From Aromatoleum aromaticum EbN1 (lineage in GTDB: Bacteria > Pseudomonadota > Gammaproteobacteria > Burkholderiales > Rhodocyclaceae), in contig NC_006513.1 in NCBI RefSeq assembly GCF_000025965.1, forward strand, positions 1,178,001 through 1,242,000: a stretch of DNA of 64,000 bases. The letters are read 5' to 3'. This document shows positions 9,619 to 56,488 of the stretch, in pieces. The stretch's first letter is position 1. Every line of letters starts with the position of its first letter. The translations under genes and the position numbers were made by a program. The notes under the pieces are model-generated. The model worked only from the letters and a program-made list of their open reading frames with translations. It searched no databases and was not told the DNA's origin.

Positions 9619-9640
9619 TTCCACCCACCGGAGAACATCG

Positions 9641-10375
9641 ATGCTGATGCAACACAGCCTGCAACAACTGCATGCCCTGCGCCTGGAAGGCATGGCGCGC
9701 GCCTTCGAGGAGCAGCTCACCCAGCCCGCCATCACCGCGCTCAGCTTCGAGGAGCGCTTCGCCCAGCTCATCGATCGCGAGATCCTGCTGCGCGACGGCA
9801 AACGCATCGACCGGCTGCTCAAGGCAGCCCGCATCAAAGCCGCTGCAGCCTGCCTGGAGGACGTCGACTACCGCGCCGGGCGCGGGCTCGAGCGCAGCCA
9901 GATCGCCGCGCTCGGCACCGGGCAATGGATCCGCCATCACCAGAACTGCCTCATCACCGGGCCCACCGGCAGCGGCAAGACCTGGCTCGCCTGCGCGCTC
10001 GCCAATGCCGCGTGCCGGCAGGGCCTCGCGGCCTATTACGTGCGTCTGCCGCGGCTCTTCGAAGAGCTGCGCATCGCGCATGCCGACGGCAGCTTCAGCC
10101 GACGCCTCATGCAGCTCGCGCGCATGGATCTCATCGTCATCGACGATTGGGGCCTGGCCGCGCCGTCGGCGCAGGAGCGAAGCGACCTGCTGGAGCTGCT
10201 CGACGACCGCGTCGGCACGCGTTCGACCGTGATCACCAGCCAGCTGCCGATCGAGCACTGGCACACCTACCTGGGCGACCCGACCTTCGCCGATGCGATC
10301 CTCGATCGCGTCGTGCACGCCGCGCACAAGCTCGCCCTCAAGGGCGAGTCGATGAGAAGAAAGGAAAAGGCATGA
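9641..10375 (+). CDS. istB: IS21-family helper ATPase IstB (inner element)
   Basis: A 244-residue AAA+ ATPase of the IstB/DnaC family. Walker A is 'GPTGSGKT' and Walker B 'LIVIDDWG', with sensor region '[10 protein letters not shown]'. It begins [19 protein letters not shown] after CCGGAGAAC and lies 22 bp behind istA. It assists transposase target selection. A long inverted repeat (about 10399-10455) follows the stop and may terminate transcription. Confidence 0.9.
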
Positions 10376-20351: not shown

Positions 20352-20573
20352 TCACGCGTCGGCGGGCGGCTTCGCTCCCGGCACGGCTGCCGACCCTTCC
20401 TGGCCGGCATTTTTCGCCCAGAACGCCTGCAGCGCCCGGTCGAACTCGGCGATCGCTTCGGCGGGAACCTGGCTGCCGCATTCGTAGCACGTGCCATGCA
20501 TGCGATCGAACCAGCGGCAGCCGCACTGCTCGCACGCGAGCTCCGGGGCGCCGGACGGGTTGTGGAAAATCAT
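20352..20573 (-). CDS. Small zinc-ribbon protein
   Basis: 73 residues, MIFHNPSGAPELACEQCGCRW..MHGTCYECGSQVP. Two CxxC knuckles (CEQCGC and CYECG) form a rubredoxin-like or zinc-ribbon finger, followed by a helix 'IAEFDRALQAFWAKNAG' and a Pro/Ala tail. The ATG follows GGAG and overlaps the stop of the upstream gene. Function unknown; its operon suggests a partner or regulator of the uncharacterised protein. Confidence 0.75.
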   Translation of the reverse strand: MIFHNPSGAPELACEQCGCRWFDRMHGTCYECGSQVPAEAIAEFDRALQAFWAKNAGQEGSAAVPGAKPPADA

Positions 20574-21058
20574 CGGCACGCTCCGAGGAAAGCCAGGCCG
20601 AGCGTGTCGAGGAACTCCTCGTAGCCCGCGTCCTGCAGTTCGAACTTCGTGCGCAGCACGAAGAACATGATGTTGCCCTGGCGGATCAGGCGCTTGATCG
20701 ACGACAGCGTGTCGCCGTCGAGCGAGGCGTGCATCACCGCGAGCGCGACGTCGTCGGCGACGAACAGCAGGTCTACTCGCGCGCCCTGGAAGCCCGGGTA
20801 AGGCTCGACGCTCGCGACCATGCCGCTGCCATCGGCCATCCAGCGCATCATCGCGACGTCGCTGCCGCTGTCGACGAGCCCGGCGACGTGCTTGCCCGGC
20901 TGGATGCCGGACCCCGTGCGCGGCACGAAGCCGACTGCCGAGCCCGGGATCATCTCGGTGAAAAGTTCGCAATGCCGGTCGAGCATCGCCTGCCATACCG
21001 GCGGTTCTGCGAACACGCGCGACGCGGTCGCGGGCGGCGCCTCCAGTTCAATCTGCAT
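20570..21058 (-). CDS. Uncharacterised protein, paralogue of the gene at 53.6 kb
   Basis: 162 residues from MQIELEAPPATASRVF, with a good GGAGG site. I do not recognise the family. The C-terminal half ('VDLLFVADDVALAV' ... 'LIRQGNIMFFVLRTKFELQDAGYEEFLDTLGLAFL') aligns with the protein at 53611-53997 ('VAMLLVADRDALAAV' ... 'LVRRGKLHPYMLRTLEDLEDAGLSDFVEDFGLVF'). Both sit in operons with the same promoter type. No membrane helix or signal peptide. Confidence 0.75.
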   Translation of the reverse strand: MQIELEAPPATASRVFAEPPVWQAMLDRHCELFTEMIPGSAVGFVPRTGSGIQPGKHVAGLVDSGSDVAMMRWMADGSGMVASVEPYPGFQGARVDLLFVADDVALAVMHASLDGDTLSSIKRLIRQGNIMFFVLRTKFELQDAGYEEFLDTLGLAFLGACR

Positions 21059-21094
21059 CTGAACCTCCATGCCTCATCGGGACAATTGCCTTCA

Positions 21095-33324: not shown

Positions 33325-34457
33325 TGGACTTCGATCTCACCGACGAACAGCGCGCGATCCAGGACACGTTCGCGCGCTTCAGCGACGAGCGCATCGCGCC
33401 GCAGGCGGCCGCGCTCGACGAGGCGCGCGCGTTCCCGCGGGCGCTGTTCCGCGAGCTCGCCGAGCTCGGCTTCTTCGGCATGCGCTATCCCGAGTCGGTC
33501 GGCGGCTCGGGGCTCGCGCTGAGCGAGTTCTGCCTCGCGCTGAGCGAAGTCGCGCGCGGCTCGATGTCGCTCGCCGGCGCGGTCGCGATGCAGTCGCTGA
33601 TGGGGACGAAGTTCCTGCAACTCCTCGGCAACGCCGACATCGTCGAGCGCCTCTTCAAGCCGGCGCTTCGCGGCGACAGGATAGGCGCAATCTGCATGAC
33701 CGAGCCGAATGCAGGCTCCGACCTCGAATCGATTGCGACGACGGCGACCCGGGTCGACGGCGGTTATGTCATCAACGGCCAGAAGACGTGGATCACCTCC
33801 GCCCCGGTCGCGGACTTCTTCACCGTGTTCGCACGCGCCGGCGATGAGAAAAAGCTGACGATCTTCCTCGTCGAGAAGGACGTCCCGGGCATCACCGTCG
33901 GGCGCGAAATCCACAAGATGGGCGTGTGGGCGCTGCCGACGTCCGAAGTCGCGTTCGACGGCTGCTTCGTGCCGGACAGCCACCGCCTGTCGAAAGAGGA
34001 AGGCGACGGCGAAGGACATTTGAAGAAGACGCTCGCCGAGATCCGCATCATCACCGGCGCGATGGCGCTCGGCGTCGCGCGCGCGGCGCTCTTTGCTGCG
34101 GTGCGCTACGCCGGCGAGCGGAAACAGTTCGGCAAGCCGATCAACCGCTTCCAGGCGATCCAGCTCAAGCTCGCCGACATGGCGACCGGGCTCGAAGCGG
34201 CGACCACCCTCGTCCACCGCGCCGCGTGGCTGTGCGACATGAAGCGCCCGCATCACAAGGAAGCCGCGATGGCGAAGCTGTTCGCGACCGAAACGGCGGC
34301 GGGCATCTGCGACGACGCGGCGCGCGTGCTGGCGTCGTACGGCTACGCGATGGAATACCCGGTGCAGCGGTATCTGCGCGACGTGCGCTTCACGCTGATC
34401 GGCGGCGGCACCAGTGAAATCCTGAAACTCGTCATTGCGAAGGAAGTGAGCTCATGA
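33324..34457 (+). CDS. iaaF: Benzylmalonyl-CoA dehydrogenase-type acyl-CoA dehydrogenase (decarboxylating)
   Basis: 377 residues with acyl-CoA dehydrogenase N-terminal, middle ('ICMTEPNAGSD', 'NGQKTWITSA') and C-terminal domains ('RKQFGKPINRFQAIQ', 'ASYGYAMEYPVQRYLRDVR'). IaaF of A. aromaticum is described as oxidising benzylmalonyl-CoA to cinnamoyl-CoA with loss of CO2. The canonical catalytic Glu (Y-E-G-T) is replaced: 'TLIGGGTSEI', with Gly at residue 361. The alternative Glu position used by isovaleryl-CoA dehydrogenase is Ile240, next to Glu239. Loss of the base fits decarboxylation replacing proton abstraction. Confidence 0.87.
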   Translation: MDFDLTDEQRAIQDTFARFSDERIAPQAAALDEARAFPRALFRELAELGFFGMRYPESVGGSGLALSEFCLALSEVARGSMSLAGAVAMQSLMGTKFLQLLGNADIVERLFKPALRGDRIGAICMTEPNAGSDLESIATTATRVDGGYVINGQKTWITSAPVADFFTVFARAGDEKKLTIFLVEKDVPGITVGREIHKMGVWALPTSEVAFDGCFVPDSHRLSKEEGDGEGHLKKTLAEIRIITGAMALGVARAALFAAVRYAGERKQFGKPINRFQAIQLKLADMATGLEAATTLVHRAAWLCDMKRPHHKEAAMAKLFATETAAGICDDAARVLASYGYAMEYPVQRYLRDVRFTLIGGGTSEILKLVIAKEVSS

Positions 34458-34873
34458 ACGACACAGGACAGCAACGCAGGATCAAGGTCCTGCTCGCGAA
34501 GCCCGGCCTCGACGGCCACGACCAGGGCGCGAAGATCGTCGCCCGCGCGATGATGGACGCGGGCTTCGAAGTCATCTACACGGGCCTGCGCCAGACGCCC
34601 GAACAGGTCGGGCGAATCGCGCTCGAGGAGGACGTGGACGTCATCGCGCTCTCCAGCATGGCGGGGTCGCACCTGCCGTTCTGCCGCAAGTTGAAACCGC
34701 TGCTCGAAGAGAACGGCCTGCACGACAAGCTGTGGCTGATCGGCGGCAACCTGCCGGCGCAGGACCACGACGCGTTGCGCGAGCTCGGCTTCAGGGGCAT
34801 TTTCCCGACCGGCTCGAAGCTCGACGCGATCGTCGCTTATATCCGTGAGAACGTCCGGGAGCACGTCGCATGA
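34454..34873 (+). CDS. iaaG: B12-binding small subunit of the acyl-CoA mutase
   Basis: 139 residues, a separate cobalamin-binding domain: 'KVLLAKPGLDGHDQGAKIVARAM' carries the D-x-H-x-x-G motif whose His ligates cobalt, with 'VIALSSMAGSHL' and 'LWLIGGNLPAQDHDAL' completing the fold. Such stand-alone small subunits occur in isobutyryl-, 2-hydroxyisobutyryl- and related mutases. It overlaps both neighbours (ATGA at 34454 and 34870), so it is made in step with the large subunit. Confidence 0.9.
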   Translation: MNDTGQQRRIKVLLAKPGLDGHDQGAKIVARAMMDAGFEVIYTGLRQTPEQVGRIALEEDVDVIALSSMAGSHLPFCRKLKPLLEENGLHDKLWLIGGNLPAQDHDALRELGFRGIFPTGSKLDAIVAYIRENVREHVA

Positions 34874-36483
34874 ACGACCGCGCGCAATCGACGCTGAAAA
34901 TCGTCACGAACGAATCCGGGCTCGAAGTCAAGCCGCTCTACACCGCGGCGGACGTCGAGGAGAGCGGCGGCACGACGATGCTCGGCGAGCCGGGCGAATA
35001 CCCTTTCACGCGCGGCATCCACCACGAGATGTACCGCAAGCAGCCCTGGACGATGCGCCAGTACGCCGGCTTCGGCAATCCGCATGACACGAACCAGCGC
35101 TTCAAGTACCTGATCGCGAACGGCCAGACCGGCCTGAACGTCGCGTTCGACCTGCCGACGCAGATCGGCCTCGACTCGGACGACCCGCTCGCCGCCGGCG
35201 AGATCGGCCGCGTCGGCATGTCGATCGACACGCTGCGCGACTTCGAGATCGCGTTCGACGGCATCGACCTCGATAAGATCACCGTCTCGATGACGATCAA
35301 CGGCGCAGCGGCGATCGCGATCGCGATGTACCTCGCGATGGCCGAGAAACGCGGCTACGACGTGAAGAAGCTGCGCGGCACCGCGCAGAACGACATCCTC
35401 AAGGAGTTCATCGGCCGCGGTACGTGGATCTTCCCGGTCGAGCCGTCGATCAAGCTCGTCGGCGACACGATCGAGTACTGCGCCGAGCACGCGCCGAAAT
35501 ACAGCCCGGTGTCGGTGTGCGGCTACCACATCCGCGAATCCGGGGCGACCCCGGCGCAGGAGATGGCCTACGCGTTCTGCATCGCGAAGGCCTACGCTGA
35601 CGAAGTCATCGCGCGCGGCCTGGCGGTCGACGAGTTCGCCGGGCGGCTGTCGTACAACTTCAACATCTTCGGCAACCTGTTCGAGCAGGTGTGCAAGTTC
35701 CGCGCCGGCCGCAGCCTGTGGGCGAAGATCATGAAGGAGGAGTACCACGCCGAAAAACCCGGCTCGATGTGGCTGCGCATGATCGCGGCCGGCGGCGGCG
35801 GCGGGCTGACCTTCGAGCAGCCGGAGCTGAATATCGTGCGCGGCGCGTACTACGCGCTGATCAGTGCATTGTCCGGCACGCAGACGATGGCGCTGTGCTC
35901 GTACGACGAGGCCTACACGATCCCGACCGAGTATTCGGCGCGCATCTCGCTGCGCACGATGCAGATCCTCATCGAGGAGATGGGGATGACCGAGACCGTC
36001 GACCCGCTCGGCGGCTCGTACTACGTCGAGACGATGACGAACCGCATGCGCGACAAGATGGAAGAGATCATCGCCGAGACCGACGCCCAGGGCGGCATCG
36101 TCAAGCTCGTGTCCGAAGGGATCATCCAGGCGAAAGTCTCGGCGCAGGCGTACCAGATGCAGCGCGACATCGAGTCGGGCAAGTTCCCGAAAGTCGGCGT
36201 CAACCGCTACCGCAACGACAACGAGGAAGACCACCCGGTCGAGTTCCACCCGTACAACGAGGACGACGCGCGCGTGCAGGTGGACGGGCTGAACAAGGTG
36301 CGCGCCGAGCGCGACAGCGAGCACGTCGCGCGCACGCTCGCAGCCGTCAGCGAGGCCGCCCGGGCCGGGGCCAACGTCATGCCGGCGATCGTCGAGGCGG
36401 TCAAGGCCTACGCCAGCGTCGGCGAAATCACGAAGGAACTGGTGAAGGTCTATGGCCGCTACCAGGAACCGATCCGCTTCTGA
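34870..36483 (+). CDS. iaaH: Methylmalonyl-CoA-mutase-like large subunit (aryl-succinyl-CoA mutase)
   Basis: 537 residues, TIM-barrel mutase subunit with 'YPFTRGIHHEMYRKQPWTMRQYAGFG', 'GLNVAFDLPTQIGLDSDDPLA', 'GTAQNDILKEFIGRGTWIFP' and 'VSVCGYHIRESGATPAQEMAY'. Aligning with P. shermanii methylmalonyl-CoA mutase, Tyr65 and Arg183 match Tyr89 and Arg207, the Arg that binds the free carboxylate; isobutyryl- and hydroxyisobutyryl-CoA mutases lack it. This fits a dicarboxylic CoA ester such as (2-aminophenyl)succinyl-CoA rearranging to (2-aminobenzyl)malonyl-CoA. The specific substrate is inferred from context. Confidence 0.88.
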   Translation: MNDRAQSTLKIVTNESGLEVKPLYTAADVEESGGTTMLGEPGEYPFTRGIHHEMYRKQPWTMRQYAGFGNPHDTNQRFKYLIANGQTGLNVAFDLPTQIGLDSDDPLAAGEIGRVGMSIDTLRDFEIAFDGIDLDKITVSMTINGAAAIAIAMYLAMAEKRGYDVKKLRGTAQNDILKEFIGRGTWIFPVEPSIKLVGDTIEYCAEHAPKYSPVSVCGYHIRESGATPAQEMAYAFCIAKAYADEVIARGLAVDEFAGRLSYNFNIFGNLFEQVCKFRAGRSLWAKIMKEEYHAEKPGSMWLRMIAAGGGGGLTFEQPELNIVRGAYYALISALSGTQTMALCSYDEAYTIPTEYSARISLRTMQILIEEMGMTETVDPLGGSYYVETMTNRMRDKMEEIIAETDAQGGIVKLVSEGIIQAKVSAQAYQMQRDIESGKFPKVGVNRYRNDNEEDHPVEFHPYNEDDARVQVDGLNKVRAERDSEHVARTLAAVSEAARAGANVMPAIVEAVKAYASVGEITKELVKVYGRYQEPIRF

Positions 36484-36493
36484 GGAATTGCGA

Positions 36494-37360
36494 ATGACCC
36501 CAATCGAACAATATCTCGCGCCGGCCACTCTCGACGAGGCGGTCGGCATCCTGCAGCAGGGCGAAGTCACGATCCTCGCCGGCGGCACCGACGTGATGCC
36601 GCAGAGCAAGGCGGGACGGCTCGCGATCAAACGCACGCTGATGAACATCCGCCGCATCCCGGAACTGAAAGGCATCGCGCTCGACAATGACGCGATCCGC
36701 ATCGGCGCGCTCACGACGATCACCGAGATCCTCAACGACCCGCTCGTCAAGGAATACCTGCCGGTGCTCGCCGAGGCCTGTGACCACTTCGCGAGCGACC
36801 AGATCCGCAACGCGGGCACGCTCGGCGGCAACATCGGCAACGCCTCGCCCGCCGGCGACACGCTGGTGCCGCTGATCGTGCTCGACGCGGAGGTCGAGCT
36901 CGCATCGAAGCCGAATGGTTCGGTGACGACGCGCCGCATGCCGCTCGCCGAATTTTTCACCGGCCCCGGGAAGACGAAGCGTGCGGCCAACGAACTGCTG
37001 ACCGCGGTGCGCATCCCGCTGCCGAAGCCGGGCCACGTCGCGCGCTTCTTCAAGTTCGGCACGCGCCCCGCGCTCGACATCTCGGCGATCTCGATCGGCA
37101 TCGCCGGCGTGATCGACAACGGCGTGATCTCGCAGGCGCGCGTCGCGTTCGGCGCCGTCGCGCCGACGCCGATCCGCGCGGCGCGCACCGAAGAGGCGCT
37201 CGAAGGCCGGCGCCTCGACGAGGCGACGATCGAAGCGGTCGCGAGCGCCGCGCGCGACGAGGTCAACCCGATCGACGACGTGCGCGCGACCGCGTGGTAC
37301 CGCAAGGAACTGATCCACAACATGACGAAAAGGATGCTCGACCATGTCGCTCAAGCATGA
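36494..37360 (+). CDS. iaaI: FAD-binding subunit of xanthine-dehydrogenase-family Mo hydroxylase
   Basis: 288 residues: 'TILAGGTDVMPQSKAG' and 'ASDQIRNAGTLGGNIGNASPAGDTLVPL' are the two FAD-binding motifs of the CoxM/XdhB family, with a CO-dehydrogenase-flavoprotein C-terminal domain 'FKFGTRPALDISAISIG'. Only one Cys is present, so it lacks the 4Fe-4S insertion of 4-hydroxybenzoyl-CoA reductase beta subunits. Passes electrons from the Fe-S subunit to an external acceptor. The end overlaps the next gene by 17 bp. Confidence 0.88.
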   Translation: MTPIEQYLAPATLDEAVGILQQGEVTILAGGTDVMPQSKAGRLAIKRTLMNIRRIPELKGIALDNDAIRIGALTTITEILNDPLVKEYLPVLAEACDHFASDQIRNAGTLGGNIGNASPAGDTLVPLIVLDAEVELASKPNGSVTTRRMPLAEFFTGPGKTKRAANELLTAVRIPLPKPGHVARFFKFGTRPALDISAISIGIAGVIDNGVISQARVAFGAVAPTPIRAARTEEALEGRRLDEATIEAVASAARDEVNPIDDVRATAWYRKELIHNMTKRMLDHVAQA

Positions 37361-37817
37361 CATCGGCTTTACCCTGAACGGCGTGAAGAAGCGCGTCACC
37401 GTCGACGTCGGCATGACCGCGCTCGACATGCTGCGCGACGTCGTCGGGCTCACCGGCACGAAATACGGCTGCGGCGAAGGCGAATGCGGCGCGTGCACGA
37501 TCCAGGTCGACGGCCTGTCGATGAACTCGTGCCTGATGTTCGCGGTGGACTGCGACGGCCGCAGCCTCGTCACGATCGAAGGTCTTGCCGCCGACCCGCG
37601 CGCCGACGCGCTGCGCGAAGCGTTCGTCGAGCACGGCGCGGTGCAGTGCGGCTTCTGCACGCCGGGCATGGTCGTGCAGGCCGCCCACATCCTCGCGACG
37701 CATCCCGACGCGGACGCCGAGACGATCAAGCGCGGCATCGAAGGCAACCTGTGCCGCTGCACCGGCTACAAGAAGATCGTCGACGCGATCGAATCCGCGT
37801 GCTGCGGCGGAAAATGA
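37344..37817 (+). CDS. iaaJ: 2x[2Fe-2S] subunit of the Mo hydroxylase
   Basis: 157 residues with both cluster motifs: plant-ferredoxin type 'YGCGEGECGACTIQVDG..NSC' and the four-helix bundle 'QCGFCTPGMVVQAA' plus 'NLCRCTGYKKIVDAI'. Standard size for XdhC/CoxS-like small subunits. Links the molybdenum site and the flavin. Confidence 0.9.
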   Translation: MSLKHDIGFTLNGVKKRVTVDVGMTALDMLRDVVGLTGTKYGCGEGECGACTIQVDGLSMNSCLMFAVDCDGRSLVTIEGLAADPRADALREAFVEHGAVQCGFCTPGMVVQAAHILATHPDADAETIKRGIEGNLCRCTGYKKIVDAIESACCGGK

Positions 37818-37828
37818 GGAGCGACGCG

Positions 37829-40240
37829 ATGAATGTTGCAGAGAAGACCCATTTCATCGAGGCCGACACGCTGATCGGCAAGCGCATCCAGAAAAAGGAC
37901 GCGCCCGAGAAGGCGGCCGGCAAGACGCGCTACATCCAGGACATGGTGCTGCCGGGCCAGCTGCACGCGAAGATCCTGCGCTCGGCGCGCGTGCATGCGC
38001 GCATCGTCTCGATCGACACGTCCGCGGCGAAAGCGCTGCCCGGCGTGCATGTCGTGCTGACCGCAGCGGACGTGCCGGACCAGCAGCCGATCGGCGTCGC
38101 GCGCGACCACCTGCCGCTCAAAGGCGAGCGCGTGCGCAGCCTGCGCGACGAGATCGCCGCGGTCGCCGCCGACTCCGAGGAGATCGCCGAAGCCGCGCTG
38201 AAACTGATCCGCGTCGAATACGAGGATCTGCCGATCATCAGCGACCCGCAGGACGCGCTGAAGCCCGGCGCGCCGCTGATCCATCCGGAACCGCACGGCC
38301 CCGACGGCAAGCATCTTCATCTGAAGCCGAACGCGCCGATCGCATTCGCCGGCAAGCCCGACAACATCGCGATGCAGTTCGACTACACGCACGGCGACAT
38401 CGCGCAGGCCGAAGCCGAGTCCGACGTGGTGTTCGAGGACACGTTCAAGCTGCATTACGTGACGCATTGCTGCATGGGCGTGTCGGGCATCATCGCCGAG
38501 TTCGACGCGTCCGGGAATCTCCTGATGTACTCGAACACGCAGGTGCCGTTCCTGCACAAGCGCGAGTTCGCCGAATACCTGCACATGGACCCGAGCCGCA
38601 TCCGCATCATCCAGCCGCCGATCGGTGGCGGCTTCGGCTCGAAGCTCGACATCTACCCGTTCGAAGTCATCTGCATCTTCCTCGCGCGCGCCGCGCAGCG
38701 GCCGGTGAAGATGGTGTTCTCGCGCGAAGAGGAGTTCCTCGCGTCGCCGACGCGCCAGCCGGTGCTGCTGACGCTGCGCTCGGGCTGCAAGAAGGATGGC
38801 ACGCTGACGTTCCGCCAGGTGCACACGCTGCACGACAACGGCGCCTACACGTCGTGGGGCGCGACGACGCCGTTCGTCATGATGCAGACGTTCTCGTCGC
38901 TGTATCGCGTGCCGGCATGCGACTACCACACCACCGCGGTGTACACGAACAACCCGTACGCCGGGTCGTTCCGCGGCTACGGCAACCTGCAGGCGACGTT
39001 CGCGATCGAGCAGCACATGGACATGCTCGCCGAAGCGATCCAGATGGATCCGCTCGAGTTCCGCCTGAAGAACGCGCAGGACGCCGGCGAAGTCACCGGC
39101 CAGGGCATGGTGTTCAAGAGCTGCGGCTTCAAGGAATGCCTGACGACCGCGGCCGAACGCAGCGACTACCAGGCGAAGCACCGCGACAACATCGCGCATC
39201 GCGGCGACGCCGGCCCGATCAAGCGCGGCATCGGCATCGCGTCGATGCTGCACGTCGGCGGCGGCGCGAAGATTTATCCGTCGGACGGCTGCGGCACGAT
39301 CCTGAAGCTCGACGACTTCGCGAACGTCACGCTGATCACCGGCGCGTCCGAGATCGGCCAAGGCTCGGAGACGGTGCTGTCGCAGCTCGTCTGCGAGGAG
39401 CTCGGCCTGCCGATCTCGGCGGTCACGGTCGTCAACAACGACACCGCGATCACGCCGTGGGACGTCGGCGTGCATGCGAGCCGCACGACTTTCATCGCCG
39501 GCAATTCGGCGATCGGCGCGGCGAAGAAGGCGAAAGCGAAGATCCTCGCGGCGGCGGCGAAGAAGCACGGCTGTGACGAGACCTCGCTCGACCTGCGCGG
39601 CGGCTTTGTCATCCACGCCGATACCGGCGAGCCGGTCGTCGAGCTTGCGCGGCTGATGCGCAACCTGCACTTCTCCGACAAGGCCGAGCTCGTCATGACG
39701 ACGTTCTACTACGAGCCGCCCAGCGTGCATCAGGACAAGGGCTTCAAGGGCGACGTGTCGGCGGCGTACGCGTGGGCGACGCAGGTCGTCGAAGTCGAGG
39801 TCGACACCGACACCGGCATCGTGAAGATGACGAAAGTCACCGGCGCGCACGACGTCGGCCGCGTGCTGAACCGCCTCGGCATCGAAGGCCAGATCGAAGG
39901 CGGCGTCGTCATGGGCCAGGGCTACGCGCTGACCGAGAACCTGATCGTCGACAACGGCGTCACGCGCAATCCGAACTTCCGCGACTACAAGCTCGTCACC
40001 GCGCCGGAAATCCCCGAGATGGACATCTCGTTCATCGAGTCGATGGACGGCGAAGGCCCGCAGGGCGCGAAAGGCGTCGGCGAAGCGCCGTCGATCTGCA
40101 TCGCCGCAGCTGCCGCGAACGCGATCTACAACGCGACCGGCGTGCGCATCTTCGCGCTGCCTTTCACGCCGGAAGCGGTCTACCGGGCATTGCGCGGCAA
40201 AACACCGAAACCCCATTGGCAAGCGTGGAGACCGGCATGA
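37829..40240 (+). CDS. iaaK: Molybdenum-cofactor large subunit of the indoleacetyl hydroxylase
   Basis: 803 residues from [35 protein letters not shown]. Two xanthine-dehydrogenase Mo-binding domains, with '[13 protein letters not shown]', '[19 protein letters not shown]', '[15 protein letters not shown]' (Moco-binding Gln) and the catalytic-Glu motif '[21 protein letters not shown]'. Predicted to add water-derived oxygen at C2 of the indole ring, giving 2-oxoindole-acetate or its CoA ester, without O2. Followed 22 bp later by the second REP-like repeat. Confidence 0.9.
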
Positions 40241-49548: not shown

Positions 49549-49962
49549 TCACCCCTCGGCGACGGCCTTCGCGAGGGCTTCGAATGGGATCAGCACGCAG
49601 CCGTGGCGGCTGCGGTGCTGGCGCACCGGCTCGAACACCGCCAGTTCGGTCCAGCCGTCCGGCCGCTCGCCGCCGGCGAGCATCGCCGCGACTCCGGCGC
49701 GCAGCGCCTCGGAGTCGGCCGCGGACAGGCCGACACCGTGCAGGCCGATCACCGACGCTGCGGCGCGGCACAGCAGGCAGCCTTTCACCTCGTGGGCGAG
49801 CGCGACGATGCGACCGTCGGCGACGCGGACTTCCATGCGCACGCGGTCGCCGCACACCGGGCTGTCGCGCATCGCCGAGCCCGACGGCGCGTCGAGCCTG
49901 CCGGCGCCGCACGCGGCCGCGGCGAGTTCCTTGATGCGCTGGTTGTAGAGGGCCTCGATCAC
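49549..49962 (-). CDS. IscU/SufU-like Fe-S scaffold protein
   Basis: 137 residues. The three-Cys pattern of IscU/SufU scaffolds is visible: 'DSPVCGDRVRMEV' (Cys-Gly-Asp), 'VKGCLLCRAAAS' and 'SRHGCVLIPFEAL'. Starts MIEALYNQRIKELAA, a family-typical opening. It overlaps the MobA-like gene stop (ATGA) and is the last gene of the 49.5-56.9 kb operon, so it may supply clusters to the 2Fe-2S subunit of the Mo hydroxylase. Confidence 0.8.
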   Translation of the reverse strand: MIEALYNQRIKELAAAACGAGRLDAPSGSAMRDSPVCGDRVRMEVRVADGRIVALAHEVKGCLLCRAAASVIGLHGVGLSAADSEALRAGVAAMLAGGERPDGWTELAVFEPVRQHRSRHGCVLIPFEALAKAVAEG

Positions 49963-51650
49963 GTGACCGGCTCCTCGATGATGCCGCTGCCGGACTGGGG
50001 GACGAGCGACGCTTCGGCCTGCGCGAGATCGCCGGGCCGGTCGACATCGACGAAGATCGCGTCGTCGTCGATCGCGATCCGCTTCACGCGGTCGGCGTTA
50101 TGTTCGATGAGGCCGCGCGCGCCCTGGTCGCCGCAGATGCCCGCCATCGCGGCGAAGAACTCGCGCGGCCACAGGATCGGATTGCCGCGGCGGCCGTCCT
50201 TCTCGGGCGTGACGATCGACGGGGCCGCGGGGTCGAAGGCCGCGATGACGCGATCGACATGTTCGGCGGTGATCCGCGGCATGTCGCCGAGCAGCACGAT
50301 CACCGCGTCGATGTCGTCCGGCAGCGCCGCGATGCCGTGGCGCAGCGAGCTCGACATGCCCTGCGCGTGGTCCGGATTATCGACGAGCGTCGCCCCGCTC
50401 GCCGCGAGCACCGTCCCGACCGCTTCGGCCTCATGGCCGACGACGACTGTCACCGACTCGGCACACGACGCGCGAGCCGCATTGACGGCGCGCAGCACCA
50501 TCGGTACGCCGCCGACTTCGATCAGCAGCTTGTTCGGGGCGCCCATGCGCGAGGACCGTCCGGCTGCCAGCACGAGCGCGGCAACGCGGGGCGCGCCCGG
50601 CCGGCGCGGCGCTGCGGAACTTTCGCCGTCGCCGTCCTCCGCATCTTCTGCCGCGTCGTCTTCAGCTTCGAGCGGACTGCGGATCAGGCCGCCGACGCCC
50701 AGTCGCATGATGTCTTCGCGCGTCGGGACTAGCCCGGCGAGCAGCCGCTGCAGCACCCAGTCGAGTCCGTTCGTGCGCCGCGAGCGGCCGCAGCCGGGCA
50801 TGATCACGACCGGCACGCTGCCGAGATGCGCCAGCACGAGCATGTTGCCCGGCTCGACCGGCATGCCGAAATGGTCGATCCGCCCGCCGGCCGCGGTGAC
50901 GGCCGCCGGCGCGATGTCGTGGCGGTCCTTCGCGACCGTCGCGCCCGACACGAGCACGAGGTCGCAGCCGGCCGCGAGCGCCTGGCGCACCATCGCTTCG
51001 AGCGCTGCGCGCTCGTGCGCGCAGCGCAGCACCAGCGCGAGACGGCTGCCGAGCGCGTCGAGGCGGTGGCGCGTCGCGGCGACGGTTCCGGCGAAGACGC
51101 TTTCCTTCATGCCGGGCAGCTCGCTCAGGATCAGCGCGACGCGATGCGGCTTCAGTTCGGCGACGCGCAGCAGCGGGCCGGCCGACGCGATCTCGCGGCA
51201 CGCGTCGATGAGGCGCGCCGGCACCGCGAACGGGATGATCTTGACGGTCGCGACGACCTGGCCGGCGCGCGCGACCGCGTGCTGCGGCAGCGTGCCGATC
51301 GCGACCGCTTCGTCGAGCAGGTTCAGGCGGTCGATGCGCTCGCGGTCCACCTGCACGATGCCGCGCAGCGACGCGTGCAGGTTGCAGCGGCCGGTGTAGG
51401 GCGGGCGCGTCGCGGCATTCGTGTCCGCCCCGGTCAGCAGCGCCGCGATCTGCGCTGCTGCGGCGTCTTCGGCGACGTCGCCGGGCGCGAGGCGCGCGCC
51501 GAGGACGGTATTGATGCCCGCGTCGCGCAGCCACGCGAGATCGGCCGCGGCGAGCGTGCGGCCTTTTTTCAGCGTCCTGCCGCCGACTTTCAGCGTATGC
51601 GCGAGCATCACGCCGGCGGCCGCGTCCGTGTCGAATTCACCGAAAATCAT
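49959..51650 (-). CDS. Molybdopterin-binding / MobA-like cytidylyltransferase fusion
   Basis: 563 residues. The N-terminal two-thirds ('LAAGCDLVLVSGATVAKDRHDIAPAAV', 'VVIMPGCGRSRRTNGLDWVLQRL') is a MoeA/molybdopterin-binding fold. An acidic linker 'EAEDDAAEDAEDGD' leads to a MobA/MocA nucleotidyltransferase 'VAALVLAAGRSSRMGAPNKLL', 'VVVGHEAEAV' and 'VIVLLGDMPRITAEHVDRVI'. Such proteins attach a nucleotide, usually CMP, to Moco for xanthine-dehydrogenase-family enzymes. This is what the IaaIJK-type hydroxylase would need. Confidence 0.87.
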   Translation of the reverse strand: MIFGEFDTDAAAGVMLAHTLKVGGRTLKKGRTLAAADLAWLRDAGINTVLGARLAPGDVAEDAAAAQIAALLTGADTNAATRPPYTGRCNLHASLRGIVQVDRERIDRLNLLDEAVAIGTLPQHAVARAGQVVATVKIIPFAVPARLIDACREIASAGPLLRVAELKPHRVALILSELPGMKESVFAGTVAATRHRLDALGSRLALVLRCAHERAALEAMVRQALAAGCDLVLVSGATVAKDRHDIAPAAVTAAGGRIDHFGMPVEPGNMLVLAHLGSVPVVIMPGCGRSRRTNGLDWVLQRLLAGLVPTREDIMRLGVGGLIRSPLEAEDDAAEDAEDGDGESSAAPRRPGAPRVAALVLAAGRSSRMGAPNKLLIEVGGVPMVLRAVNAARASCAESVTVVVGHEAEAVGTVLAASGATLVDNPDHAQGMSSSLRHGIAALPDDIDAVIVLLGDMPRITAEHVDRVIAAFDPAAPSIVTPEKDGRRGNPILWPREFFAAMAGICGDQGARGLIEHNADRVKRIAIDDDAIFVDVDRPGDLAQAEASLVPQSGSGIIEEPVT

Positions 51651-51692: not shown

Positions 51693-52409
51693 TCATGTCG
51701 GGCGATGCCTCGCCTGCACGACCTCGGCGAGGATCGCGACGGCGATCTCGGCCGGCGCGCGCCCGCCCAGGTCGAGCCCGACCGGCGAGTGGATGCGGGG
51801 AACCGCGTTTTCCAGCCCCGCCTCGCTGAGCCGCGCGACGCGCTTCGCGTGGGTGCGCGTGCTGCCGAGCGAACCGATGTAGAACGCGTCGCTGTGCAGC
51901 GCGACGATCAGCGCCGGATCGTCGAGCTTCGGGTCGTGCGACAGCGTGACGACGGCGGTCTGCGCGTCGATGCCGAGCCGCTCCAGCGCCTCGTCGGGCC
52001 ATTCAGTCATCACGCTGACGCCCGGCAGGCGCTGCGGCGTCGCGAACGCGCGCCGGGGGTCGACGACGATCACTTCGAAGCCGGCGATCGCGGCCATCGG
52101 CGCGAGCGCCTGCGCGATGTGCACTGCGCCGACGATGACGAGCCGCGGCGCGCCGACGTGGCAGCGCGCGAACAGCGCGCCGTCGGCCGACGCGAGCGCG
52201 CCGCTGCGGTTCGCCCGCAGGCGCTGGCGCGTCTCGGCGAGCTGCTCCGGCGTCAGCGCCAGCGCGCCGGAAAACCCGTCCTGGTTCTCGTTTGCGCTTT
52301 CCTCTTCGTGCACCAGCGCCGCTTCGCCATCGGCAAGCCGCGTGACCACCGCCACCGGCCGCTTCGCGCGGCGATCGGCGAGAAGCTGCTCGAACATCGC
52401 CGCTTTCAT
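51693..52409 (-). CDS. XdhC-like Moco chaperone, C-terminal Rossmann part only
   Basis: 238 residues from MKAAMFEQLLADRRAKRPV, overlapping the upstream gene by ATGA. Shows the second XdhC domain: 'LVIVGAVHIAQALAPMAAIAGFEVIVVDPRRAFAT', 'TAVVTLSHDPKLDDPAL', 'YIGSLGSTRTHAKRVARL' and 'GLDLGGRAPAEIAVAILAEV'. The XdhC/CoxI N-terminal domain is absent here and instead is fused to the MeaB-like gene before it. XdhC protects and sulfurates Moco before insertion. Confidence 0.85.
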   Translation of the reverse strand: MKAAMFEQLLADRRAKRPVAVVTRLADGEAALVHEEESANENQDGFSGALALTPEQLAETRQRLRANRSGALASADGALFARCHVGAPRLVIVGAVHIAQALAPMAAIAGFEVIVVDPRRAFATPQRLPGVSVMTEWPDEALERLGIDAQTAVVTLSHDPKLDDPALIVALHSDAFYIGSLGSTRTHAKRVARLSEAGLENAVPRIHSPVGLDLGGRAPAEIAVAILAEVVQARHRPT

Positions 52410-53536
52410 TCGATCCGCTCCACGAGAACCTGCACCCGGCCGCCGCACGCGAGACCGACCTCCCACGCCTGCTCGTCGCTGACGCCAAACTCGAGCAGGC
52501 GCGGCCTGCCGTCGGTGATGACCTCTTGCGCTTCGCCGATCACCGCGCCCTCGATGCAGCCGCCGGACACCGAACCCAGGAACGCCCCGCTCTCCTCGAC
52601 CGCGAGATGGCTGCCTTCGGGGCGCGGCGACGAACCCCAGGTCCGCACCACGGTCGCGAGGGCGACGCCACGGCCCACCGCACGCCAGCGCCGCAGCTGC
52701 TCGAAAAGTTCGTCGTCGGTCGCGGGCGCCGCCGGCATCGCGTCGCTCGCCGCCGAAGGGGTCGCGGCGCGCAGCCGCCGCCCGATGCCGGTGACGCCTG
52801 TGTGGGCGTCGATCCGCTCCACGAGCTCGGCGATCCCTTCGCCGCTCGTCGCGACCGTGCGCAGCACCGGCACCGTCCAGTGTTCGTCGCGCTGCAGTCC
52901 GCCGCTCGTCTGCAGGTCGAGCATCGTGCGCGCGGCGAGCGGCGAGTCGCCCTTGTTCACGACGAGGATGTCGGCGATCTCGAGGATGCCCGCCTTGATC
53001 GCCTGCACTTCGTCGCCGAGTCCCGGCGGACACACGACGACGTTCGTGTCGGCGACGCGGCCGATCTCGACTTCGGACTGCCCGACGCCGACCGTCTCGA
53101 CGACGACGACATCGAAGCCCGCGGCGTCGAACACATCGACGAGTTGCGCGGTCGTGCGCGACAGGCCGCCGAGGTGGCCGCGCGACGACAGCGACCGGAT
53201 GAAGACGCGCTCGTCGGCGCCGTGCCCGCCCATCCGCACGCGGTCGCCGAGCAGCGCACCGCCGGTGACCGGGCTCGACGGATCGACGGCGACGACCGCA
53301 ATGCGCCGGCCGCGCGCGAGCAACTCACCGAGGAGCGCGTTGATCAGCGTCGATTTGCCGGCTCCCGGCGCACCGGTGATGCCGACGATGTGGGCACGGC
53401 CGCGGTGCGACGCGAGGCTCACGAGGAGCTCGGCCGCACCGGGGCGGCCGTTTTCGACCGCAGTCAGCGCGCGCGCCAGCGCGGGACGCGAGCCGCCGAG
53501 GACTGCCGCCGGATCGATGTCTGCGGAAAAGCTCAT
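52406..53536 (-). CDS. MeaB-type GTPase fused to an XdhC N-terminal domain
   Basis: 376 residues from MSFSADIDPAAVL. Residues about 1-245 are an ArgK/MeaB GTPase: Walker A 'GITGAPGAGKST' (52-63), 'VVAVDPSSPVTGGALLGDRVRM', 'VVVETVGVGQSEVE' (145-157) and 'VVNKGD' (192-197). After a Ala/Pro-rich linker, residues about 270-376 are the XdhC/CoxI domain 'GVALATVVRTWGSSPRPEGSHLAV..FLGSVSGGCIEGAVIGEA'. MeaB guards B12-dependent acyl-CoA mutases; XdhC handles Moco. The fusion joins the maturation factors of the two iaa metalloenzymes. The MeaB C-terminal dimerisation arm seems lost. Confidence 0.9.
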   Translation of the reverse strand: MSFSADIDPAAVLGGSRPALARALTAVENGRPGAAELLVSLASHRGRAHIVGITGAPGAGKSTLINALLGELLARGRRIAVVAVDPSSPVTGGALLGDRVRMGGHGADERVFIRSLSSRGHLGGLSRTTAQLVDVFDAAGFDVVVVETVGVGQSEVEIGRVADTNVVVCPPGLGDEVQAIKAGILEIADILVVNKGDSPLAARTMLDLQTSGGLQRDEHWTVPVLRTVATSGEGIAELVERIDAHTGVTGIGRRLRAATPSAASDAMPAAPATDDELFEQLRRWRAVGRGVALATVVRTWGSSPRPEGSHLAVEESGAFLGSVSGGCIEGAVIGEAQEVITDGRPRLLEFGVSDEQAWEVGLACGGRVQVLVERIE

Positions 53537-53610
53537 CGCTGCAGTGACATTTGTTTGACGTCCAACCATCTTGCCCGTGTGCGCCCGCTCGCGCAACCGC
53601 CCACGCGGCG

Positions 53611-53997
53611 TCAGTGCCGCGGAAACACGAGCCCGAAGTCCTCGACGAAATCGGACAGGCCGGCGTCTTCAAGGTCTTCGAGCGTCCTCAGCATGTAAGG
53701 ATGCAGCTTGCCGCGGCGCACGAGCGGCGCGACCTGCGCGAGGCCGTCGGCGAGCACCGCGGCGAGCGCGTCGCGGTCGGCGACGAGCAGCATCGCGACG
53801 TCCGCGTCGAAGTCGCCGCGGTAGCTGCGCAGCGTCACGTTCGCGCCTTCAAACGTGCCGCGCCACACGAGCACGCGGCCGTGGCGCGCGGCGAAATCCT
53901 CCTTCGTCAGCACGCCGATCGACGCGTCGGCCGCGGGCACGCCGTCGCGGTCGAGCATCGCTTTCCACGCGGCGCAGTCGAGAAGCCCGTCGCTCAT
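53611..53997 (-). CDS. Uncharacterised protein, paralogue of the gene at 20.6 kb
   Basis: 128 residues MSDGLLDCAAWKAMLDRDGVPAADASIGVLTKEDF. The second half matches the C-terminal half of the protein at 20570-21058 ('VADRDALAAVL', 'LVRRGKLHPYMLRTLEDLEDAGLSDFVEDFGLVF'). No known motif or signal peptide. Lies between the flavin/RidA genes and the maturation genes of the same operon. Confidence 0.75.
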   Translation of the reverse strand: MSDGLLDCAAWKAMLDRDGVPAADASIGVLTKEDFAARHGRVLVWRGTFEGANVTLRSYRGDFDADVAMLLVADRDALAAVLADGLAQVAPLVRRGKLHPYMLRTLEDLEDAGLSDFVEDFGLVFPRH

Positions 53998-54028: not shown

Positions 54029-54421
54029 TCAGGCCGGCAGCATCGCCGTGACCTCGATCTCGACTTTCGCGCCCTTCTCGACGAAGCCGGCGACCTGCAG
54101 CGCCGTCATCACCGGGAAATGCTTGCCGATCAGCTCGCGGTACACGGCGCCGATTTCAGCCAGACGGGCGTTGTACTCGACGCTGTCGGCGAGATACCAG
54201 TTCATCCGCACGATGTGGGCCGGGCGCGCGTCGGCTGCGGCGAGGACCGCGACGATGTTGCCCAGGGCCTGGCGGACCTGGGCGACGAGATCGTCGCTGC
54301 GGAACTGCTCCTGTTCATCCCAGCCGACCTGGCCGGCGACGAACACCATGCGCCCGCTGGCGACAATGCCGTTTGAATAGCCCTTGGGGCGTGCCCATCC
54401 GGGCGGTTGCAGAAATTGCAT
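54029..54421 (-). CDS. RidA-family (YjgF/YER057c/UK114) deaminase-like protein
   Basis: 130 residues from MQFLQPPGWARPKGYSNGIVASGRMVFVAGQVGWD, behind AAGGAG. Standard RidA trimer-forming fold with 'VRQALGNIVAVLAAADARPAHIVRMNWYLAD' and the 'IEVTAML' end. RidA proteins hydrolyse reactive imines/enamines to ketones. In this operon it might clear reactive amino intermediates of indole or aminobenzoate metabolism; that is inference. The Arg that binds substrate carboxylate lies in 'HIVRMNWY'. Confidence 0.87.
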   Translation of the reverse strand: MQFLQPPGWARPKGYSNGIVASGRMVFVAGQVGWDEQEQFRSDDLVAQVRQALGNIVAVLAAADARPAHIVRMNWYLADSVEYNARLAEIGAVYRELIGKHFPVMTALQVAGFVEKGAKVEIEVTAMLPA

Positions 54422-54517
54422 CGGTTCGGTCTCCTTGCGTTTTCGAGTGGGCAGTGCAACCGCGCCTGCTTCCTGCGCGCGGTGCGGCTGCACTGCCGTT
54501 TGCGTGACGGCGCCGGC

Positions 54518-56488
54518 TCAGATCCGCACGCCGAGCCGGTAGCCTTCGTGGATCGCGGCGTCGAGCCCGCGCGCGATGACCGCGTCGCCAGCACCGTGCA
54601 GCTCATCGACCATCCACTGGAATTCGTGGAACAGGTCGTGGTTCGCCTTGCGCGGCCCGGACACGATGACGGTGTCGGCTTCGACGAAAATCTCCTCGCC
54701 TTTGCCGTTCTTCACTGTCGCGCCTTCGACCGTGACTTTCGTCAGCACCGACGACGTCAGCGTGCGGATGCCGAGTTCCTCGATCCACGCCGAGTGGCGC
54801 CACTTGAACGACGGCATGACGTCGCCGGCGATGCGCTTGTCTTCCTCGACGAGCACGACTTCGTGGCCCTGCTTGCACAGCGATTCGGCCAGCGTCAGGC
54901 CGATCTTGCCGGCGCCGACCATGACGATGCGCTTGCCCGGAGTCACTTTGCCGGTCGCAACGTCGAGCGCATCGACGAGCTGCTCATGGCCTTCAATGTG
55001 ACGATAGGCTTTCATGTCGGTGCGCGAGCCGGCCGCGACGATGCACACGTCGAACTGGTGCAGGATGCTGCGCATGAACTTCGCGTTCGCCTCGGTGTTG
55101 AAGCGCACGTCGATCTCCATCTTGCGCGCCATCGTCTCGTAGTACTTGATCACCGAGATCAGGTCGTCGGGCCGCGCGAGATCGTTCGCCGCATAGCCGG
55201 CGAGGCTGCCGCCGATGCGGTCGCCTTTCTCGAACACGGTCACCTCGTGGCCGCGGCGCTTCGCGGTGATCGCCGCTTCCATGCCGGCGGGGCCGGCGCC
55301 GATGATCATGATCTTCTTCTTCACCGCAGCGGGCGTGACGTGGTATTCGGGCTCGACTTCGTGGCCGAGCGCCGGGTTCATCGCGCAGGTGTAAGGCAGG
55401 TCGCGGAACAGGCGCGACAGGCAGTTCAGCGAGCCGATGCAGCGGCGCACCTCGTCGAGCCGGTCTTCGGCCGCCTTGTGCAAGAGCTCCGGGTCGGCGA
55501 GCATCGGGCGGCACACTTCCCAGTAGTCGAACACGCCGTCGGCGATGCACTGGTTCGCCATCACCGGGTCGGGCAGGCGGTTGCCGAACGTGATCAAGGT
55601 GTTCGGGAAAAGTTTCTTCGCTTTCGCCGACAGGTAGTTCCAGTGCCCCGGCGCGACGTCGCGGCCGATCGACGATTCCGGCGCTTCCTGCCAGCCGACG
55701 GTCACCGAAATCATGTCGACGCCCGAATCGACCGCCTGCTGCATCAGCTCGAAGCACTCGTCTTCGCTGTTGCCGCCCCAGCGGTCCATCAGCTCGGCAC
55801 CGTTCAGGCGCACGACGAGCGGATGCTCGGGAGTGGCCTGCTTGATCGAGTCGATCAGTTCGCGCATGAAGCGGCCGCGGTTCTCGATCGAGCCGCCGTA
55901 TTCGTCGGTGCGCTGGTTCGTGAAGCGCGAGTTGAAGTTCGCCAGCAGATAGCCCATGAAGCTGGTCACTTCGGTGCCGTCGAAGCCCGCGCGGATCGCG
56001 CGTTTCGCGGCATCCGCGTGTTGGCCGATGATCGCGCGGATCTGCTCCTTCGTGACTTCCCTCGGCGGGCGGAAATGCGGCAGCGTCTGCGGCACGACCG
56101 ACGGCTGGATGCAGTAGCCCAGGTCGATGCCCCCGTAGCGCCCGGCGTGCAGGATCTGCTGGATTGCGACCGCGCCGCCGTCGTGGATGTACTGCGCGAT
56201 GGTCTCGAATTGCGGCAGGAACTTGTCGTCGAACAGCGCCACCTGGCGGAAGTACGATTTGCCTTCGCCGAGCGGGTCCGGGTATGCGCCCTGGTTCGTG
56301 ATGATGCCGGCGCCGGTCGCGGCGATGACGCGCATGCGGGCGAGTTCGCGCGGCGTGATGTAGCCGTCGCGCGTGTTGTAGTTCGACACGCAGCACGCGC
56401 CGTACTTGACCATGTTCTTGGTCGGATACTTGCCGATCTGGCCGGGTTTGAACAGATGGGGGAGCTTGAGCTCGCCGGGTCGGGTCAT
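54518..56488 (-). CDS. NADH:flavin oxidoreductase / 2,4-dienoyl-CoA-reductase-like Fe-S flavoenzyme
   Basis: 656 residues. Old-yellow-enzyme TIM barrel (residues about 10-370; 'GYLLANFNSRFTNQRTDEYGGSIENRGRF', the classic motif), then FAD/NAD(P) domains 'KIMIIGAGPAGMEAAITAKRRGHEVTVFEKGDRIGGSL' and 'KRIVMVGAGKIGLTLAESL'. This is the TMADH/FadH/BaiCD family with an FMN and a 4Fe-4S cluster. In the cluster motif C350-x2-S353-x2-C356-x11-C368, Ser replaces the second Cys of the family pattern, so the cluster may be altered or absent. Probably reduces an unsaturated or aromatic-derived acid or ester; substrate unknown. Confidence 0.87.
   Translation of the reverse strand: MTRPGELKLPHLFKPGQIGKYPTKNMVKYGACCVSNYNTRDGYITPRELARMRVIAATGAGIITNQGAYPDPLGEGKSYFRQVALFDDKFLPQFETIAQYIHDGGAVAIQQILHAGRYGGIDLGYCIQPSVVPQTLPHFRPPREVTKEQIRAIIGQHADAAKRAIRAGFDGTEVTSFMGYLLANFNSRFTNQRTDEYGGSIENRGRFMRELIDSIKQATPEHPLVVRLNGAELMDRWGGNSEDECFELMQQAVDSGVDMISVTVGWQEAPESSIGRDVAPGHWNYLSAKAKKLFPNTLITFGNRLPDPVMANQCIADGVFDYWEVCRPMLADPELLHKAAEDRLDEVRRCIGSLNCLSRLFRDLPYTCAMNPALGHEVEPEYHVTPAAVKKKIMIIGAGPAGMEAAITAKRRGHEVTVFEKGDRIGGSLAGYAANDLARPDDLISVIKYYETMARKMEIDVRFNTEANAKFMRSILHQFDVCIVAAGSRTDMKAYRHIEGHEQLVDALDVATGKVTPGKRIVMVGAGKIGLTLAESLCKQGHEVVLVEEDKRIAGDVMPSFKWRHSAWIEELGIRTLTSSVLTKVTVEGATVKNGKGEEIFVEADTVIVSGPRKANHDLFHEFQWMVDELHGAGDAVIARGLDAAIHEGYRLGVRI

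Follow-up and report, generated by a model that had tools for sequence, protein, structure and literature searches.

Domain structure of the MeaB–XdhC fusion

The window analysed here, a stretch of 64,000 nucleotides from Aromatoleum aromaticum EbN1 (NC_006513.1, positions 1,178,001 to 1,242,000), carries on its minus strand a gene for a 376-residue protein (52406–53536) in which a MeaB-type GTPase and an N-terminal XdhC (CoxI) domain are encoded in a single open reading frame (Table 1). The longest frame extends to 53596 (52406–53596); homologues favour the start at 53536. A first-pass annotation of the letters had read this frame as ArgK/MeaB GTPase motifs followed by an XdhC/CoxI domain and had proposed a domain search, which bore the reading out. 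The MeaB part matched PF03308 with an E-value of 1.1e-87 (294 bits) and TIGR00750 with 307 bits against a cut-off of 241, which places the protein in the MeaB family, and the XdhC part matched PF02625 (XdhC_CoxI) with an E-value of 2.6e-25 (88.5 bits against a cut-off of 24.3), all 68 profile positions being covered. The narrower profile NF006958 gave 239 bits, below its cut-off of 329.

Table 1 Features of the fusion locus and of the iaa genes in the window
Feature	Position	Strand	Evidence or remark
iaaG (B12-binding, 34454–34873) and iaaH (mutase, 34870–36483)	34454..36483	+	proposed client of the MeaB half
iaaI (FAD), iaaJ (2Fe-2S), iaaK (molybdopterin subunit)	36494..40240	+	proposed client of the XdhC half
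NifU-like small protein	49549..49962	-	found near XdhC/MocA genes in many loci
MoeA-like domain + MocA-type cytidylyltransferase	49959..51650	-	MoeA-like part by a weak family match only; relatives fused straight to MeaB in G033 and G106
xdhC-C (XdhC C-terminal Rossmann half, separate gene, 238 aa)	51693..52409	-	PF13478, E 3.5e-40
ATGA overlap of fusion stop codon and xdhC-C start	52406..52409	-	sequence
XdhC_CoxI N-terminal domain	52484..52687	-	PF02625; contains GSVSGGC; CGG motif just past the profile match
Linker	52688..52792	-	length and sequence differ between species
MeaB G-domain	52793..53479	-	PF03308 profile 1–237 of 273; C-terminal dimerisation part absent
Switch III DEVQAIK	52994..53014	-	D, Q and K = MeaB D182, Q185 and K188 by spacing; invariant in 14 aligned fusions
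P-loop GAPGAGKST	53348..53374	-	motif

The motifs GAPGAGKST, ETVGVGQSE and NKGD are all found in the fusion, and the P-loop, switches I, II and III and the base-specificity motif (NKGD) of the MeaB family are present. Residues Lys61, Ser62, Asp85, Asp98, Arg101, Glu147, Asp175, Gln178 and Lys181 of the fusion (376-residue numbering) correspond, with an offset of 7 set by motif and constant spacing rather than by residue-by-residue alignment, to Lys68, Ser69, Asp92, Asp105, Arg108, Glu154, Asp182, Gln185 and Lys188 of Methylobacterium extorquens MeaB, as named in PMC10481361. All nine nucleotide and switch residues are invariant across 14 aligned fusions, and, judged from the sequence, the catalytic residues of the fusion are intact. 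Membership of the two families predicts that a mutase would stimulate the GTPase of the MeaB part and that the XdhC part would bind Moco and pass it to a hydroxylase.

Where the first-pass annotation had spoken of an XdhC domain, only the N-terminal half of XdhC proved to be fused. No XdhC Rossmann domain is present in the same chain in the window; that half is encoded by the next gene, xdhC-C. The genes upstream of the fusion, on the same strand, encode a 128-residue protein that matches no Pfam family, RidA and a flavoprotein of the old-yellow-enzyme type. The fusion operon runs on the strand opposite to iaaK, approximately 12 kb from the iaaK end, and a promoter and terminator scan of it gave counts near those of shuffles (1 against 0.4 and 5 against 3.9).

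Several further features of the neighbourhood were seen. The RidA and old-yellow-enzyme type pair (54029–56488, minus strand) recurs together with CoA ligase and xdhC genes in four loci (L074, L092, L102 and L234), and its substrate might be 2-aminobenzoyl-CoA, an intermediate from further along the pathway that carries an amino group. By eye, the gene of the 128-residue protein (53611–53997, minus strand) has a similar-looking counterpart next to a small CxxC/CxxC protein at 20352–21070 (minus strand), and a set resembling these two is also seen in L074. Two adjoining genes at 8050–10375 (plus strand) resemble IS21-type IstA and IstB, again by eye.

The fused gene is conserved and under selection

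The first-pass annotation had named an assembly artefact joining two genes as one way in which its reading could fail. The fusion junction recurs in many independently assembled genomes, with varying linker lengths, and the identity of the fusion to that in the window is 92–94% or 74–79% in other genomes of the genus and 66–77% outside it. Among four sister species, dN/dS ranged from 0.12 to 0.29 for the MeaB part and from 0.07 to 0.24 for the XdhC part, and was 0.75–0.93 for the linker in five of six pairs, the sixth having no ratio for lack of synonymous change. The MeaB and XdhC domains are both under purifying selection, the linker much less so. Because the same frame is found in separate assemblies and selection acts on both domains, an assembly artefact or a frameshift is ruled out.

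The fused MeaB lacks its C-terminal dimerisation part

The MeaB profile match of the fusion ends at position 237 of 273, against 271 for the free MeaB of the same genome, and the sequence match of the fusion to a solved MeaB stops at residue 260 of the latter. According to PMC9974510, the C-terminal extension of MeaB takes part in dimerisation, with the dimerisation helices lying after residue 293 of 329. Since the profile stops early, the C-terminal dimerisation helices are missing from the fusion. The other Pfam-scanned fused forms behave in the same way, their MeaB part ending between profile positions 230 and 249 with the exception of a glyoxalase form (268), and a free MeaB scanned alongside them reached 268.

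Compared with MeaB and MMAA, the G3E GTPase chaperones of B12 mutases, the fusion has the same G-domain family and the same switch I–III residues, but an XdhC domain in place of the dimerisation helices; the free MeaB of the home genome is 42% identical to it. MeaB fusions as such are already known from IcmF (PMC10481361 and PMC9164220). Like the fusion, IcmF of the home genome has a fused MeaB-type G-domain without the C-terminal profile end (positions 1–229). The G-domain of IcmF is joined to its own client, however, whereas in the fusion its partner is a chaperone that belongs to a different metalloenzyme. With XdhC/CoxI proteins, the Moco chaperones of the xanthine oxidase family, the fusion shares PF02625, the GSVSGGC and CGG motifs and XdhC-C and MocA as neighbours, but it has the N-terminal half only, placed behind a GTPase. 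No description of a MeaB–XdhC or MeaB–MocA fusion was found in the open-licence PubMed Central literature among the matches listed.

The fusion accompanies the iaa pathway

The window contains exact matches, at 33324 and 34433, to a pair of primers published for iaaF (ebA2055) of A. aromaticum EbN1 (PMC8360864). The same paper describes IaaGH as a mutase and IaaF as benzylmalonyl-CoA dehydrogenase; IaaIJK was taken as the Mo hydroxylase from the first-pass annotation and Pfam matches. An iaaH orthologue (at least 77% identity, the next best value being 46%) was found in 20 of 101 genomes, comprising the home genome and 100 relatives. The XdhC fusion occurred in 16 genomes, all of them within those 20, and in none of the 81 genomes without iaaH (Fisher 3e-15, with kinship left uncorrected). 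The fusion and iaaH share a contig in 13 of the 16, at distances of 10–56 kb; for G009 the distance runs over the origin, its single contig being taken as a circle. In the other three they lie on different contigs. Both the fusion and iaaH are present twice in G003. The link to the iaa pathway proposed in the first-pass annotation, which had noted both in one window, is thereby upheld across genomes.

Within the genus Aromatoleum the fusion was present in all 12 genomes with iaaH and in none of the five without it, which rules out a general genus trait. Nor is the fusion needed for iaa, as four of the 20 iaa-positive relatives (G017, G022, G070 and G033) are without the XdhC form. G033 has a MeaB–MoeA/MocA protein instead; in G017 the MeaB that lies next to iaa-like genes shows no recognised additional domain, and xdhC is found in an operon of its own.

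A second set of 20 assemblies was picked for likeness to the fusion (16 to MeaB, four to XdhC-N only) and is therefore a biased rather than a fair sample. An iaaH orthologue (at least 78%) was found in 10 of the 20, and IaaF agreed with the iaaH call in all 11 assemblies tested (10 yes; G104 no). XdhC-N fusions were present in G101, G102, G103 and G105 (cut), all four iaa-positive, and in G104. Two more iaa-positive assemblies (G106 and G108) have other Mo forms, and the remaining four of the 10 (G107, G109, G118 and G119) have no Mo-type fusion.

The first-pass annotation had held that fusions in genomes without either partner enzyme would speak against it. Among the genomes with a Mo-type fusion that were tested for iaaH, 23 of 24 have it, and one, the metagenome bin G104, does not: its fusion is present and orthologues of IaaF, IaaH and IaaK are absent. 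G104 is a candidate rather than a clean counter-example, as its fusion contig (25 kb, of which 19 kb were read) carries an IaaM-like gene (63%). A further fusion, in G432, lies outside the 24 genomes tested for iaaH.

Among 399 genomes drawn evenly from the order, the XdhC-N fusion was found in two (the home genome and G432) and an XdhC-C form in one (G162), at the same place as in G108. A close MeaB relative was present in 11 of the 399; seven of these, besides G070, have it within approximately 3 kb of either a mutase or an IaaGH-like mutase pair, and the remaining three are the window, G432 with the fusion and G162 with the XdhC-C form. A term search for indoleacetate in the expression paper PMC9765128 returned no mention in the text covered.

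Mo-side partners of one MeaB clade

The fused proteins take several forms. The MeaB–XdhC-N form of the window was found in 14 genomes among those tested for iaaH, plus G432, and seven other Aromatoleum genomes have MeaB, XdhC-N and XdhC-C in one chain of 599–608 residues (confirmed by Pfam on two). MeaB is joined to the MoeA-like domain and MocA in G033 (L019) and G106 (L047), both iaaH-positive. The iaaH-positive G108 (L049) joins it to an XdhC-C-like domain, assigned by 38% identity over 78 residues (pairwise E-value 2e-9) with no Pfam match at 1e-4. The MeaB tree, built from 73 domains, has a branch with 97/97 support that sets apart the 24 Mo-fused rows; one of these (G105) breaks off at a contig end just inside XdhC, and G432 is not among them. 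Every Mo-chaperone fusion of the tree falls in this single MeaB clade, with four kinds of partner, a finding that is new here. Fused genomes belong to at least two families (f1 and f10), and also include bins titled Burkholderiaceae.

The standing operon order is xdhC-N, xdhC-C and moeA-like/mocA, and the appended domains are its first, second or third gene. Free close XdhC-N relatives in the loci are either stand-alone proteins of 106–123 residues or full-length XdhC of 334–348 residues, one more ending at a locus edge. In the XdhC-N tree, which has 105 columns only, fused rows (L005, from G011, being a fusion) are mixed with free ones, and the tree speaks neither for nor against a single origin.

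Nearby MeaB proteins have other C-terminal domains by Pfam, namely 4HBT thioesterase, CutA1, nitroreductase-like and glyoxalase-type domains. The MeaB–4HBT form was seen in seven loci (L048, L052, L053, L064, L268, L269 and L271), all adjoining an IaaGH-like mutase with 34–37% identity to IaaH. MeaB–CutA1 was seen in L050, the glyoxalase type in L055 and the nitroreductase-like form in L020; the L050 and L055 loci showed no IaaGH-like mutase. In the MeaB tree the 4HBT labels of L051 (= L204) and L213 were read by eye, L051 having no 4HBT match at 1e-4, and the rows L199, L201, L205 and L206 have the Pfam matches of L048, L064, L052 and L053. The 4HBT, CutA1 and glyoxalase-type proteins resemble the fusion in having an extra domain at the MeaB C-terminus, but their partners are not Mo-cofactor proteins, and the mutase beside the 4HBT forms is a different one.

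Metalloenzymes and chaperones of the home genome

With curated cut-offs, the home genome, to which this inventory was confined, has three mutase and three MeaB domains, as well as two MoCoBD_2 domains (Mo hydroxylases) and two XdhC_CoxI domains. Methylmalonyl-CoA mutase has a MeaB gene approximately 1 kb downstream, IcmF has its own fused MeaB, and IaaH has no MeaB but the fusion. Likewise, the second Mo hydroxylase, at 2.12 Mb, has an adjoining XdhC gene, whereas IaaK has no XdhC but the fusion. Judged by the length of its FAD subunit, the second hydroxylase may be 4-hydroxybenzoyl-CoA reductase. Since all other pairs are matched, IaaGH and IaaIJK remain as the only clients for the fusion, which by elimination probably serves these two. 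The first-pass annotation had likewise pointed to one mutase and one Mo hydroxylase as partners.

A proposed two-client maturation factor

In the MeaB cycle, GTP-bound G-domains pair via switch III and wedge the mutase open (PMC10481361 and PMC9974510). XdhC is a dimer in solution that binds Moco, protects it during sulfuration and inserts it, and is believed to associate with MoeA/MogA/MobA in a complex (PMC2997495 and PMC10609526). We favour, with a probability of about 0.65, the reading that the fusion serves two clients as a maturation factor in the anaerobic degradation of indoleacetate (auxin). For the B12 mutase IaaGH, its G-domain would act as MeaB does: the GTP-bound G-domains would pair through switch III and keep IaaGH open for adenosylcobalamin loading or the release of damaged cobalamin, and GTP hydrolysis would let the mutase close. 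The XdhC N-domain, together with the separately encoded C-terminal half, would receive Moco from the neighbouring MoeA-like/MocA protein, and the XdhC halves would then pass it to IaaIJK. Because both enzymes are required by the pathway, we propose, the fusion keeps their maturation activities in one protein. The assignment of each half to its enzyme is deduced from gene content. That related bacteria with the pathway have the fusion in differently built versions suggests that the two metal enzymes may be matured together. For the two-client reading speak the co-occurrence and linkage with iaa genes, the kept catalytic residues, the selection on both halves, the single Mo-fused clade and the one-to-one inventory; against it stand the iaa-positive genomes that have no such fusion, G104, the 55–58% IaaK variants beside a fusion of unchanged type, and the place of the fusion operon on the strand opposite to iaaK. 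A physical shared assembly platform for IaaGH and IaaIJK, as put forward in the first-pass annotation, is hypothetical, and co-expression of the chaperones would explain the same data.

Co-expression is indeed a strong rival to mechanistic coupling in one chain. Adjacent and co-regulated meaB and xdhC-N genes may simply have lost the intervening stop codon, so that each half works alone and the tether just fixes their ratio. This is a serious possibility at slightly less than even odds, and it is compatible with the two-client reading, the two confidences being non-exclusive. It is favoured by the appended domains following one operon order, by the unconserved linker (dN/dS 0.75–0.93 in five of six pairs) and by the close MeaB proteins joined to 4HBT, CutA1, nitroreductase-like and glyoxalase-type domains, which indicate that this G-protein fuses readily. 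However, four partner forms in one clade, every one from the Mo toolkit, and the spread of the fusion over at least two families argue for more than neighbourhood. Alternatively, the MeaB domain could have been repurposed as a GTPase switch for the hand-over of Moco to IaaIJK, without serving IaaGH, comparable with HypB and UreG for nickel enzymes. Although the G-domain is joined to XdhC-N, XdhC-C or MoeA-like/MocA in different genomes, and the review PMC2997495 describes the control of sulfurated Moco insertion as not identified, we consider a pure Mo chaperone unlikely: the switch III Asp, Gln and Lys, with their role in mutase gating, do not vary, most of the closest relatives from outside the clade have mutase genes beside them, and IaaGH would be left as the sole home-genome mutase lacking a G-protein.

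The missing dimerisation helices raise two further readings. The 4HBT, CutA1 and other families appended to MeaB are oligomeric, and the scanned Mo-type fusions stop short of the C-terminal end of the profile. Together with the dimeric state of XdhC in solution (PMC2997495), this would fit an XdhC part that is mainly a dimerising scaffold in place of the lost helices, with little Mo function. That account is improbable, as the GSVSGGC and CGG motifs are kept, the XdhC part has a dN/dS of 0.07–0.24 and, in the window, it still adjoins xdhC-C and mocA. The second is a coupled loading of the two cofactors, in which the XdhC dimer (or MoeA-like/MocA) replaces the helices and the G-domains pair and open the mutase only in the geometry set by the Mo chaperone; we regard it as doubtful. 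If it held, the Moco state would gate B12 loading, or GTP would gate the Mo hand-over, giving a checkpoint that links two metalloenzymes of one pathway. In a wider sense, the C-terminus of MeaB would then serve as a socket for oligomeric domains plugged in during evolution.

The fusion bears on two insertion processes, of B12 and of Moco, that have been studied as separate systems. Tied to one pathway and occurring in four forms, it makes directly testable whether two unrelated metalloenzymes are matured in a coordinated way. It is also a natural Mo-side fusion with which to ask how GTP enters the Moco hand-over, and its forms suggest that MeaB can exchange its dimerisation part.

Variation of the Mo hydroxylase within the iaa cluster

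In two genomes (G006 and G007) the fusion is 92–94% and IaaH 98% identical to those of the window, but IaaK only 57%. Given this divergence of IaaK beside a nearly unchanged fusion, the XdhC half is not closely tailored to a single IaaK. The difference between IaaH at 98% and IaaK at 57% within one genus suggests that the Mo hydroxylase may have been swapped inside the cluster. More generally, IaaK occurs in two versions relative to that of the window (37814–40240), with 76–100% and 55–58% identity, while IaaH is at least 77% identical throughout (G006, G007, G022, G033, G053 and others), and the 55–58% variant is present in several genomes whose fusion type stays the same.
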